A stretch of DNA of 64,000 nt, taken from Fructilactobacillus ixorae (GTDB taxonomy: Bacteria > Bacillota > Bacilli > Lactobacillales > Lactobacillaceae). The position numbers and the translations under genes were made by a program. Every line of letters starts with the position of its first letter. Within the stretch, counting starts at the first letter, position 1. This document shows positions 21,607 through 26,122 of this stretch, piece after piece. The notes under the pieces were generated by a model. The model saw only the letters and a list, made by a program, of their open reading frames with translations. It did not search any database and had not been told where the DNA came from. The stretch is taken from the NCBI RefSeq assembly GCF_024029915.1, contig NZ_CP097478.1, forward strand, positions 1 through 64,000, in the 5' to 3' direction.

Positions 21607-22451
21607 TGAATTTTAAACGAATTCAGGGAATCTTCTTAATTGCTTTCATTGTGATTGACGTTTTTTTATTCATGATGACTAAGAATAGTAAGGTTCAAGA
21701 TGACAGTGCGAACGCTGGCAATGTGAATACCACCATTATCAAAGACATGAAACGGGACAACATTACGGTGGGTTCCTTGAGTACGGCTAAGCACACGGGT
21801 TACTATTTGTCGGCTGAACCGCAGACGGATTTTGGTCCCCGGTTGGCAACGTTAAAAAATCAGAACGCGCGCAGTGAGAACGGGACAATCGTTAGTGATT
21901 TGCGGACGCCCGTGAAGGTTGCTGCAACGCATCCGGAGCGGACGCTCACCAAGTTGCTGCGGAAGCGGCCCGGGTTTGTGCTGGACGCTAAGCAGTATCG
22001 GTATGATCCGGATTTATCCACCAAGACCAAGGTGGTTTATGCCCAACAAAGTCCAGCGGGCCCCTTCTTCTCTGCAAACGCACAACTGACGTTTAGCATT
22101 GTGAACCAACGGGTGATTGGTTATACCCAACGGGAACTTGGAAACGTCAAGATTCTGCATGATAAAGCGGACCTAATTACGGAGGAACGGGCGGTGATTA
22201 GTTTGTATCAATATAACGAGTTACCGAATAACGCCAAGATTTTGTGGACCAAGCTAGCGTATACCCGCTTCTTAGAATTAAGTGGTAAGGAAGTTTATAT
22301 TCCGACCTGGGTCATTGCGATGAACACGAAGTCGAATCCGAAGGTGCAAATTAAACGGATTAATGCCCTGAACGGGGCTTCGTTTAATACGGAAAAGGTG
22401 CAAGAACAACCAAACGGAACTGCGAAAGTGGAAAGCGTGAAAAACGAATGA
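21606..22451 (+). CDS. walI: Two-component system regulatory protein WalI (YycI)
   Basis: Second membrane modulator of WalK, acting in complex with WalH. The N-terminus MNFKRIQGIFLIAFIVIDVFLFMM gives the single helix and matches the family opening; the remaining 250 residues are extracellular. The start overlaps the walH stop (TAATG). The final four bases overlap walJ (ATGA), so all three accessory genes are translationally coupled. Confidence 0.88.
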   Translation: MNFKRIQGIFLIAFIVIDVFLFMMTKNSKVQDDSANAGNVNTTIIKDMKRDNITVGSLSTAKHTGYYLSAEPQTDFGPRLATLKNQNARSENGTIVSDLRTPVKVAATHPERTLTKLLRKRPGFVLDAKQYRYDPDLSTKTKVVYAQQSPAGPFFSANAQLTFSIVNQRVIGYTQRELGNVKILHDKADLITEERAVISLYQYNELPNNAKILWTKLAYTRFLELSGKEVYIPTWVIAMNTKSNPKVQIKRINALNGASFNTEKVQEQPNGTAKVESVKNE

Positions 22452-23248
22452 ATGATGAGTTTAAAATCAGTGTGTTGTCGAGTGGTAGTGGGGGAAATTG
22501 CACGTACATTGAAACGCCCCAGCACAAAATTATTCAAGATGCGGGGCTCTCGGGAATTCGGATTAAACGGTTAATGGAAGGCATCGGGAAGGACCTTGCC
22601 GATGTCGACACCATGCTCGTTACGCACGAACATACGGACCACGCTAAGGGCGTTGGAATTTTAGCCCGAAAATATGGGATGAACGTATATGCAAACGAGG
22701 CGACCTGGAAGGCGATGGACCCAAAAATCGGCGCGGTGCCACTGGAGCAAAAGTTTGTGTTTGATCCCAATACCACCGAATTATGGGGTGATTTGGACGT
22801 CGAAAGCTTCACGGTCGCCCATGACGCAGCGCAGGCGCAGTTCTATAACTATCACCATCACGGAAAAAGTTTTGTGATCATCACGGACACCGGGTCAGTT
22901 TCAGACCGGGTCGCGGGTTTGATTCGGAATGCAGGTGCGTATTTATTTGAGTGTAATTATGACCCCGACATGCTAATGAATGGGGATTATTCGTATTCCA
23001 CGAAACTGCGAATTAACAGCGACACCGGTCACTTGTCTAACCAGGCCAGTACGGAGATTTTAATGGACGTGATGGGTCCACAAACCAAGCGTATTTTTCT
23101 GGCGCACCGGAGTCATCATAACAACACTAAAGCGCTCGCCCGCCTGACCGTGGCGTCGGTCATGAAGAATCATGGATTTGGAGTTGGCCAAGCTTTTGAA
23201 CTCTTTGATACGGATGTCGAACAACCCTCTCCGTTAATTAAGTTATAA
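22448..23248 (+). CDS. walJ: Metallo-beta-lactamase-fold protein WalJ (YycJ)
   Basis: Soluble metallohydrolase encoded with WalRK, implicated in coordinating wall metabolism or DNA repair; in vitro a 5'-3' exonuclease in some species. The metal motif THEHTDH is at residues 59-65; a further metal aspartate is in IITDTGS, and LSNQAS and AHRSHHNN are near the C-terminus. 266 residues is the family length. It ends the operon and a strong terminator follows. In many relatives htrA comes next; here it does not. Confidence 0.93.
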   Translation: MNDEFKISVLSSGSGGNCTYIETPQHKIIQDAGLSGIRIKRLMEGIGKDLADVDTMLVTHEHTDHAKGVGILARKYGMNVYANEATWKAMDPKIGAVPLEQKFVFDPNTTELWGDLDVESFTVAHDAAQAQFYNYHHHGKSFVIITDTGSVSDRVAGLIRNAGAYLFECNYDPDMLMNGDYSYSTKLRINSDTGHLSNQASTEILMDVMGPQTKRIFLAHRSHHNNTKALARLTVASVMKNHGFGVGQAFELFDTDVEQPSPLIKL

Positions 23249-23254
23249 TAAACG

Positions 23255-23291
23255 ACACGGTTCTATTTCAGCGATGAACCGTGTTTTTTTA
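23255..23291 (+). terminator. Terminator of the wal operon
   Basis: ACACGGTTC (23255-23263) and GAACCGTGT (23276-23284) form a stem followed by eight T. Confidence 0.92.
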
Positions 23292-23420
23292 ATGGCGTGC
23301 AAATGGTTGATTTTGTTGAGCGGAAGTCCGGTCAAAGTTTCCAGTAATTCCGAACAAAAAAAGTTTCACAGCGCCGAAATGCAAGAAATTATAACACGCG
23401 TAGCTGATAGGGGAAATCAC

Positions 23421-23734
23421 TGTTGATAAGTTTGTGGATAAGTTTTTGGTGCTGAGAAAAAGCGCGCTCCGATGCGGAATAATCTCCGTGAATAACTTTT
23501 TGAAAGTTATCCACAGGGGCTGTTAATAACTTTATGAAACATTTTTGTTCGATTTTCAAAGCCTGTAATAACGGCGTTTCACGGTCTTTTTTATGTGTGT
23601 TAACGAACAAATGTTGCTGTGCTAACTGTGGATAACTAAAAAACTTGTTGACAGACCTGGGAAAAAGACAGGTGGTTAAATTTCCCCGAAATTGCGGAAA
23701 ATTAGCCACTCCTTGTGGATAACTTTGTGGATAA
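23421..23734. promoter_or_regulatory. DnaA-box cluster in the walJ-rlmH gap
   Basis: The 507-base stretch between walJ and rlmH has no gene. It holds five perfect DnaA boxes: 23433-23441 (-), 23507-23515 (+), 23627-23635 (-), 23714-23722 (-) and 23726-23734 (-), with near-matches such as TGTTGATAA at 23421. The visible oriC half has only three perfect boxes. A TTGACA at 23648-23653 may be part of the rlmH promoter, which DnaA would then control. A small hairpin (ACCTG/CAGGT, about 23655-23672) is also present. Confidence 0.85.
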
Positions 23735-23755
23735 ACTGTTGAAAGGCGGGTAGTT

Positions 23756-24235
23756 ATGAACATCAAACTGGTAGTAGTTGGAAAACTAAAGGAAAAGTAC
23801 TTTGCGGCGGCCATTGCTGAGTACCAAAAGCGGTTATCGCGCTTTTGTAAGGTTAAAATGATTGAAGTCCGGGATGAAAAAGCTCCAGAATCATTAAGTT
23901 CTACTGAGATGGAGCAGGTGATGGCGAAAGAGGGTGACCGAATTCTATCCAAAGTGAGTGAGCGCGAGTACGTGTTTGCGTTAGCGATTAACGGGACCGA
24001 ACGCACGTCAGAGACCTTTGCGCAACAGATTAAAGATTTGACGACGTATGGTCATTCGGACCTTACCTTTATCATTGGCGGTTCACTGGGATTAGCTCCA
24101 GCGGTCTTAGCGCGGGCCAACGATCAGCTATCGTTTGGGAAGTTCACCCTCCCCCATCAGTTAATGCGAGTGGTCTTATGTGAACAAATTTATCGGGCCT
24201 TGATGATTAATAGCAACAGTCCATACCACAAATAG
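23756..24235 (+). CDS. rlmH: 23S rRNA (pseudouridine1915-N3)-methyltransferase RlmH
   Basis: SPOUT-family methyltransferase that modifies pseudouridine 1915 in helix 69 of 23S rRNA. The 159 residues start [16 protein letters not shown] and carry the knotted SAM site IGGSLGLAP, with the conserved C-terminal [14 protein letters not shown]. Length is exact for the family. Start ATG 23756 has AAAGGCGGG upstream. This gene (orfX) is a known insertion target for SCC elements in staphylococci; no insertion is present at its 3' end here. Confidence 0.97.
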
Positions 24236-24245
24236 GAAAGAAGGA

Positions 24246-25367
24246 ATGGTTTTGAAAAGAATTCAACCCCGCAGCACAGTTAAATGGTGGTGGTTACTAG
24301 TAGTTCTAGTCGTGGGGCTCATTGCCGTTTTATTGACCCATTACGATGCGCCGCTATACAGTCAGACCGTGGCTGAGGTCCAGCAGGTTAAAAACGGCCC
24401 GCGGATGAAAACTACGGATGAGTTTCGTAATCAGGATTACCAGCAAAATCAAACGGTGACCCTCAAAATCCTCAATGGGAACAAACGGTGCCAAACGGTG
24501 CGGGTGCAAAATCAATTTTCGCGCTCAAATGCCACCGATCAGGAATATCACCCGGGCCAACAGGTTTTTTTACATCTGGGTGGGAACGCTCAGCGCAACC
24601 GGTCTGGTCTCATTAACGGTTTTAAACGGGATACCGTGGTGGTCTTTTTGGTTTGGTTAACCGTGAGTCTGCTGTTACTCATCCTGAAATTTCGGGGGTC
24701 AATGGCACTTCTAAGCCTGGTAGTAAATGCCTGGTTGTTCATAATAGTCGTGGAGTTAGATGTGCACACAGATTGGAATCCCTTTGTGCTGTTTAGTCTC
24801 CTTGCGGTAGTGTTTACGGTCGTAACCGCTTTGTTAATCTTTGGGCGCTCTAAGGAAACCCTGGTAGCCATTATTGCCACCATTTTGGGGACCGCCGCGG
24901 CATTGATCATTGCCTGGTTAGTGCTAACTGTAACGCACCAACGGGGCATGAAGTTTGAAATGATGGACTACGTGACTCAGCAGCGGCTCCCCCTCTTTTT
25001 TGCGGGGAGTATGATTGGCTCGCTCGGAGCCATCATGGACCTTTCGGCCGATATCACGTCGAGTGTGTTTGCAATCTATCGCGAGCAACCGACCATGCGG
25101 TTTGCCGAGTTGTTTGCGAATGCCAGAAAGATTGGCCGCTCCATCATGGGTCCCCTAATTAACGTACTCTTTTTGATCTTTGTGGCTAGTACCTTTCCCA
25201 TGATGGTGCTGTTTTTAAAGAACGGAAATAGTTGGGGCTATTCGTACTCAATGATTATGTCATTAGGAATCGTCCAAAGTTTGATTAGTGGAATTGGAAT
25301 TGCGCTAACCGTTCCAATTACGGGGTTGTTAGCCGGTGGTATTTGTGAAATGAAGGTGTGCAAATGA
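24246..25367 (+). CDS. YibE/F-family membrane protein (first of a pair)
   Basis: Multi-pass membrane protein of unknown function. One N-terminal helix (about 15-33) precedes a soluble extracellular segment (about 35-120) and then about seven hydrophobic helices. The segment MIGSLGAIMDLSADITSSV is typical of YibE/F proteins, which are usually paired. Its last bases overlap the start of the next gene (ATGA). It starts 10 bases after rlmH and is probably cotranscribed with it. Function not known; a transport role is a guess. Confidence 0.8.
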   Translation: MVLKRIQPRSTVKWWWLLVVLVVGLIAVLLTHYDAPLYSQTVAEVQQVKNGPRMKTTDEFRNQDYQQNQTVTLKILNGNKRCQTVRVQNQFSRSNATDQEYHPGQQVFLHLGGNAQRNRSGLINGFKRDTVVVFLVWLTVSLLLLILKFRGSMALLSLVVNAWLFIIVVELDVHTDWNPFVLFSLLAVVFTVVTALLIFGRSKETLVAIIATILGTAAALIIAWLVLTVTHQRGMKFEMMDYVTQQRLPLFFAGSMIGSLGAIMDLSADITSSVFAIYREQPTMRFAELFANARKIGRSIMGPLINVLFLIFVASTFPMMVLFLKNGNSWGYSYSMIMSLGIVQSLISGIGIALTVPITGLLAGGICEMKVCK

Positions 25368-26122
25368 GTACGATTAGTGCCCTAGTTTTGGTATTACTAG
25401 GAGCGATGTTACTAGCTGGTGGTAAGCAGGGGCTCGTTTCATTTCTCGGGTTGCTGTTTAACTTTGCGGTGGTCTTTTTATCCGTAGTCTTGATTTCCTG
25501 GGGGATTCCGTACCTGATTGTGACGTTGTGTAACGCGGTGATTATCCTCGTAGTTTCCATTTATTTTGGTAATCAACAGGGACGCAATGCTGACATTGCG
25601 TTTTTAACGTCCATCATCGTGGTTGGCTTAGTAATTTTATTGATCATCCCGATTGAACACTGGGCCCAGGTGCAGGGCTTTGGAGTCGAAAATACGGAAG
25701 ACCTGGAAGGACTCTCCCTGCAACTAGGGGTCCGGTTTCTAGATGTTTCCTGTGCGATGACGATTTTAAGCTGTCTAGGAGCAGTAGCAGAGGCCGCCGT
25801 GGCGGTTGCAACCGGGTTAGTTGAGCTGGAGGATCACGATGCTACGATTAGTGAGCAGCAGTTAATTCGCACCGGAATGCGCGTTGGTCAAGAAATCGTA
25901 GGGACGGCTTTTAATACCCTGTTCTTTGGATTTTACGGGGAACTCCTCGGCCTCTTTATCTGGTTTGCCCGGTTGCACTACACGCTGGGGATGATTATTA
26001 ACGATAAAATTTTTGTCGCCGAACTGATCATGACAATCATTTCCGCCATTGGGGTCATTTTGACGATTCCCATTACGATTGGCGTAGTGCTCTACCATAA
26101 ACGGCATCGGGTCAAGGGCTAA
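25364..26122 (+). CDS. YibE/F-family membrane protein (second of a pair)
   Basis: 252-residue protein with about seven hydrophobic helices, of the YibE/F family like its upstream partner but lacking the extracellular segment. The ATG at 25364 overlaps the upstream stop by four bases, the reason for preferring it over the GTG at 25358. A conserved acidic loop (HWAQVQGFGVENTEDLEG) sits around residues 85-105. The two proteins probably form one complex. No biochemical role can be assigned. Confidence 0.8.
   Translation: MSTISALVLVLLGAMLLAGGKQGLVSFLGLLFNFAVVFLSVVLISWGIPYLIVTLCNAVIILVVSIYFGNQQGRNADIAFLTSIIVVGLVILLIIPIEHWAQVQGFGVENTEDLEGLSLQLGVRFLDVSCAMTILSCLGAVAEAAVAVATGLVELEDHDATISEQQLIRTGMRVGQEIVGTAFNTLFFGFYGELLGLFIWFARLHYTLGMIINDKIFVAELIMTIISAIGVILTIPITIGVVLYHKRHRVKG

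Follow-up and report, generated by a model that had tools for sequence, protein, structure and literature searches.

The gap between walJ and rlmH in Fructilactobacillus ixorae raises the question of why a cluster of DnaA boxes should lie in non-coding DNA away from oriC, and what such a cluster does there. The window analysed here is a stretch of 64,000 nucleotides (NZ_CP097478.1, positions 1 to 64,000), in which a non-coding gap (23249–23755) separates a walJ-like gene (22448–23248) from rlmH (23756–24235, plus strand), the right-hand neighbour of the cluster. The walJ-like gene is the last gene of a walRKHIJ-type locus to the left of the gap (Pfam: response regulator, Cache_WalK kinase, YycH, YycI and metallo-beta-lactamase). 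In Bacillus subtilis, we take yydA to be the orthologue of rlmH. An inverted repeat ending in a T run (23250–23289, plus strand; 14-nt arms, 86%) is a possible walJ terminator and lies outside the matches of the terminator pattern, for which the loop limit was 8; that pattern gave two terminator-like matches, at 23473–23490 (+) and 23479–23467 (−), versus 0.4 in shuffled sequences. A perfect 10-nt inverted repeat (CGAACAAAAA / TTTTTGTTCG) was also observed at 23351–23360 and 23542–23551, 181 bp apart, and two YibE/F-like genes follow rlmH (window 24246–26122).

Five perfect TTATCCACA boxes are located within 302 bp (23433–23734), all inside the walJ-rlmH gap, and their starts are at 23433 (−), 23507 (+), 23627 (−), 23714 (−) and 23726 (−). 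Boxes with one mismatch to TTATNCACA start at 23421, 23487 and 23521, so the five perfect boxes and near-matches in about 310 bp of non-coding DNA reported by the original prediction are borne out. From left to right, the array begins with a double DnaA box (23421–23441, minus strand), in which a one-mismatch box (23421–23429) and a perfect box (23433–23441) are 3 bp apart, a tandem that is visible in genus alignments. It is followed by a weak box-like site (23487–23495, minus strand), whose mean column identity of 0.77 is the lowest among the box sites. Pattern match and genus alignment then give a perfect box in the opposite orientation (23507–23515, plus strand) and a box with one mismatch to TTATNCACA (23521–23529, minus strand). 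Pattern match also gives a perfect box 23 bp from the start of a dyad described below (23627–23635, minus strand) and a second double box, with both members perfect and 3 bp apart (23714–23734, minus strand). A double box separated by 3 bp, with one mismatch allowed, was found in 95 of 139 loci, and pairs 2 or 3 bp apart are reported to be preferred in vivo by DnaA of Escherichia coli (PMC11317965).

The low chance of a perfect box, also claimed at the outset, was confirmed by 2000 dinucleotide shuffles of the gap, which contained 0.0075 perfect boxes on average and 1 at most, versus 5 observed. In the whole window there are 8 perfect boxes versus 0.43 expected. With several putative high-affinity boxes outside oriC, more than chance would give, the array is by its sequence a cluster of the B. 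subtilis type. As for helical phasing, the minus-plus box spacings (24 genus-distinct values) are 43 and 130, with the rest at 51–54, 64, 74–75, 84–88 and 95–96, giving R of 0.76 at 10.5 bp, a value as high as which was reached by none of 5000 jittered sets; for minus-minus pairs p is 0.0016 with R of only 0.33, and for plus-minus pairs p is 0.16. The phasing is given as an observation only, because tandem boxes 10–13 bp apart create such steps and the genera share ancestry.

Across the genome (1.42 Mb, two contigs), we counted 19 perfect boxes (5 in the cluster, 5 at oriC and 9 scattered), versus 4 occurrences of the pattern read backwards. At oriC, three boxes lie between dnaA and dnaN and two about 0.24–0.32 kb before dnaA, with contig C1 taken as circular. 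Outside oriC, the perfect boxes of this genome therefore cluster only in the walJ-rlmH array, whose count equals that of oriC. The dnaA-dnaN boxes are at 1391–1484, about 22 kb from the cluster, which is the predicted distance. The cluster had been called denser than this visible half of oriC, but "more numerous" would be right, because the oriC half has more boxes per base (3 perfect in 94 bp, versus 5 in 302 bp here) and fewer in total. Similarly, in four related genomes with rlmH 6–29 kb from dnaA (G001, G022, G045 and G027), the rlmH site alone outside oriC has at least 3 perfect boxes within 500 bp.

The comparison of boxes across Lactobacillaceae rlmH loci, which the original prediction proposed as a check, spoke in its favour. 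Of 80 named loci, 77 had at least two perfect boxes in the 800 bp before rlmH and 76 had at least three; these are the best 80 of 326 loci encoding a close rlmH relative, and thus lean to close kin. As controls, 749 tiles, each 800 bp long, were taken from these loci; 16 of them had at least one perfect box and 3 had at least two, and these 3 tiles are themselves the displaced clusters of L044, L048 and L054, the loci that have no boxes beside rlmH and carry them farther upstream instead. Within the same 800 bp, 46 of 58 order-level loci had at least two perfect boxes and 9 had none, and for 70 class-level loci these numbers were 22 and 33; in many of the class-level loci without boxes, rlmH is tens of kb from dnaA. 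Among the Lactobacillaceae loci sampled by name the cluster is a general feature; in the order it is frequent, and in the class its occurrence is patchy.

The arrangement of the boxes is conserved as well. Relative to rlmH, the five boxes lie at −321 to −323 (minus), −247 to −249 (plus), −128 or −129 (minus), −42 (minus) and −30 (minus), a layout kept in six of nine Fructilactobacillus loci including the window, with four boxes in L087 and different layouts in L105 and L113. Three of four loci from family f2 of the order have a kindred layout (−360 minus, −276 plus, −149 minus, −45 minus, −32 minus). In a 10-sequence genus alignment, the mean column identity is 0.96 for the perfect boxes and 0.89, 0.89 and 0.77 for the near boxes, compared with 0.65 for the rest of 23415–23735. 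By eye, the gap of family f2 (L085, L088 and L096) appears to contain a short coding sequence near the boxes, the product of which has a CxYC motif and may be like B. subtilis YyzF.

Generally, the order of genes in relatives is walJ-htrA-cluster-rlmH, and an HtrA motif was found in the nearest upstream plus-strand ORF (at least 150 aa) in 60 of the 80 named loci. The boxes are thus beside the place of htrA, rather than in it as first proposed. Using F. fructivorans HtrA as the query, htrA was not found in the window's own genome; among ten genomes of the genus (G000–G009), it was found in two (G003 and G007) and not in the other eight. The window and L086, L087, L102, L105, L106, L111 and L113, all from genomes in which htrA was not found, contain 4 or 5 perfect boxes each (box counts are known for seven of the eight such genomes).

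The array also persists where rlmH itself was not found. A profile search for rlmH matched 59 of 60 genomes, the exception being G003, which is listed as 99% complete, and a tblastn search of rlmH against 27 kb of this genome (L291 and L292) gave no match. Downstream of its htrA, G003 has 3 perfect and 4 one-mismatch boxes (2835–3159 of L291), compared with 4 or 5 perfect boxes in its relatives, together with the GTTAACGAACATATGTT block and TTGACA, followed by a gene for a Crp-type regulator in the opposite direction. From the dyad, TTGACA is at 46 bp and a box at 16 bp, versus 44 and 23 in the window; given this looser spacing and the fewer perfect boxes, decay after loss of rlmH is possible. 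Elsewhere the array keeps its place downstream of htrA, and other DNA separates it from rlmH. This DNA contains a TnpB/IS605-type gene in L044; in L048 it contains a QueT gene, and in L054 a gene resembling that QueT gene together with two more ORFs. G040 has TrkA- and TrkH-type genes at this point and G042 has two ORFs, and in L010, L015 and L028 the intervening DNA measures some 430–530 bp. Since the array is kept without htrA, without an rlmH found, or apart from rlmH, it is likely to be more than an rlmH promoter, and it is probably a self-standing module that acts on its own. As a separate observation, 28 positions at the C-terminal end of the RlmH profile are matched again, with a stop, about 480 bp after rlmH in G021 (G021:C5:70831-71866), which would fit the integration of an element at the 3' end of rlmH.

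From the above, we consider it probable that the cluster is a self-standing, origin-proximal element in the position of the B. subtilis yydA cluster, and that it acts by DnaA titration. DnaA would bind the array cooperatively, most strongly at the two double boxes. Being only 22 kb from oriC, the array would be copied soon after initiation, its duplication would double the high-affinity sites and lower free DnaA, and re-initiation would then be delayed. Titration soon after initiation appears to be the best explanation because the array matches the B. subtilis element in position and composition. The "conserved DnaA reservoir" of the original prediction gains support from the observed boxes, their conservation and their survival without htrA or rlmH, from which we infer DnaA occupancy, titration and an effect on initiation. 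In B. subtilis, deletion of six clusters led to early initiation (PMC13220808, reporting Okumura 2012), and a cluster moved to terC had a weaker effect (PMC5010248, reporting Okumura 2012).

In order to relate the boxes to distance from oriC, 35 of 60 genomes were used, and the comparison of means had a lower bound of 5 kb that left out three genomes at 2.3–2.5 kb (2, 0 and 2 boxes). The mean number of boxes beside rlmH is 1.57 where rlmH is more than 100 kb from dnaA (n = 7, order-level genomes) and 4.16 where it is 5–100 kb away (n = 25), a difference with a one-sided Mann-Whitney value of 0.0017 that ignores kinship; displaced clusters (G040 and G042) count as absent here, and with the three boxes of G040 the far mean becomes 2.0. 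The rank correlation of box number with rlmH-dnaA distance over all 35 genomes is weak (rho −0.35, p 0.04). In G018, where about 1.09 Mb lie between rlmH and dnaA, rlmH has no perfect box beside it, and perfect boxes form no group of three outside oriC. Clusters need not be near oriC, because G038 and G046 have further ones beside ywlC-like genes; with the contigs taken as circular, their distances from dnaA are about 227 and 562 kb.

The strongest alternative, though an unlikely one, is a DnaA-regulated rlmH promoter, whose activity would be lowered or raised in step with the cell cycle by the last two boxes, at −42 and −30, and by the array upstream of them. There are 21 bp between the end of the last box and the rlmH start, two perfect boxes stand beside rlmH where it is 265–517 kb from dnaA (G057, G038 and G046), and the genome in which rlmH was not found has fewer perfect boxes. 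In B. subtilis, direct regulation by DnaA is listed for yyzF-yydABCD (PMC8203912). But the array can still be recognised in that same genome (G003), and it has kept its place after htrA in loci with other DNA in front of rlmH. The region has a single promoter-like match, at 23365, a number that shuffled sequences reach as well. The initiator-controlled rlmH promoter of the original prediction is thus weakened as the whole explanation, since the array persists apart from rlmH or where no rlmH was found, and a regulatory side role is possible in view of the B. subtilis listing. An rlmH promoter at the TTGACA described below was tried and rejected, as no −10 hexamer was seen 17 bp on in the genus alignment by eye; in Lentilactobacillus, a promoter-like sequence TTGTTC-N17-TATAAT was noticed by eye.

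Titration, the preferred reading, alone leaves one part of the array unexplained. A conserved non-DnaA block, GTTAACGAACANATGTT (23599–23615, plus strand), contains a dyad CGAAC-N4-GTT starting at 23604, and a second block (23637–23653, plus strand) runs from TAAAAA to TTGACA (23648–23653), 44 bp from the dyad; both were found by genus alignment and locus scan. The mean column identities of these blocks are 0.96 and 1.00, so they are as conserved as the perfect boxes. The dyad is followed by TTGACA at 42–44 bp in 39 of 139 loci, a placing that none of 2780 mononucleotide-shuffled sequences showed; in 38 of the 39, a DnaA box with at most one mismatch also lies 23–24 bp from the dyad. These facts, together with a spacing that is unchanged in the displaced array of L010, would fit a composite switch of lactic acid bacteria: beyond simply binding DnaA, the locus would assemble it with a second protein, seated at the dyad and TTGACA, into an ordered complex and so alter DnaA activity, as a Gram-positive counterpart of datA or DARS. 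We regard such a switch as improbable. The pattern was not found in 100 of the 139 loci, and the 39 are not independent cases because the loci share ancestry; G003 keeps the dyad and TTGACA, but with spacing that is not fixed (+46, and +16 for the box); and the displaced arrays of L044, L048, L054, G042 and G040 are without the dyad in its CGAAC-N4-GTT form. Besides, B. subtilis is described as being without datA, DARS and IHF (PMC13220808). In most Levilactobacillus loci the four central bases of the dyad vary and the flanks are constant, and L005 and L024 have CAAAC.

The dyad fits the Gram-positive LexA consensus as we assume it to be, and the stretches upstream of lexA contain CGAAC-N4-GTTTG in 28 of 30 cases (29 of 30 with a looser pattern). 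As a LexA (SOS) box, however, the dyad scores 10.7 versus 16.6 for the genome's own lexA site, and a matrix built from the lexA sites of relatives ranks it seventh in the window, with six places higher. Both results led us to reject this identity, so that LexA is at most a weakly supported candidate partner. A structured RNA was rejected as well: no Rfam match was found at E up to 1 in 23200–23900, only 2 of 25 predicted pairs showed two-sided change (covariation term +0.71), and the long helix pairs box against box.

A second replication origin or its remnant is hardly credible, as the cluster equals oriC in box number but lacks a DnaA-trio beside the boxes with an AT-rich unwinding region, the combination that marks an oriC: no DnaA-trio-like repeat was found in it, whereas oriC has CTACTACTACTA (recognised by what we take to be the trio motif), and the peak A+T in 30 bp is 0.80 versus 0.90 at oriC.

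If titration is the function, a single perfect-box cluster outside oriC would let one deletion test it, where B. subtilis needed six. The natural absence of htrA or rlmH and the intervening DNA would help to separate a replication role from a promoter role. The dyad-TTGACA part is the most interesting lead, and the dyad-box-TTGACA module could serve as a defined bait for a candidate second protein.

Among known systems, the region upstream of B. subtilis yydA is the closest. It belongs to a set of eight regions with prominent DnaA binding in vitro, and has 7 sites and a Kd of 0.16 uM for ATP-DnaA (PMC4447404), so the Bacillus cluster named in the original prediction is correct. Several DnaA sites thus lie upstream of an rlmH orthologue in both organisms, those in F. 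ixorae being recognised from sequence alone, and the two clusters appear to occupy the same chromosomal place. B. subtilis differs in having six clusters outside oriC, compared with one cluster of perfect boxes here, and is described as having neither datA, DARS nor SeqA (PMC13220808). The ywlC region of B. subtilis, another DnaA-binding region, has a likeness in the Lactobacillales genomes G038 (L280 and L281) and G046 (L282), with a box cluster beside Sua5/ywlC-like, prmC-like and RF-1-like genes (RF-1 as examined in G038), whereas the window's genome is without such a cluster of perfect boxes. In G038, an additional box cluster was observed at a pyridine nucleotide-disulphide oxidoreductase gene.

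E. coli datA is likewise a box cluster outside oriC that restrains initiation, as is proposed here, but datA acts via DnaA-ATP hydrolysis, and for the B. subtilis cluster titration only is reported (PMC5010248). In comparison with datA and DARS, the conserved non-box dyad inside the array is a candidate site for a second protein. The origin-proximal, high-density DnaA motifs of E. coli have been proposed to favour titration near the origin (PMC12371093); they are a regional excess, in contrast to one 314-bp array here. In the literature searched, which covered few subscription papers, we found no paper tying DnaA boxes to rlmH/orfX, or titration to Lactobacillus. The DnaA-box cluster as a type of element is already known from B. 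subtilis yydA, and what is added here is its range of conservation, its independence from htrA and rlmH, and the recurrent dyad-box-TTGACA spacing.
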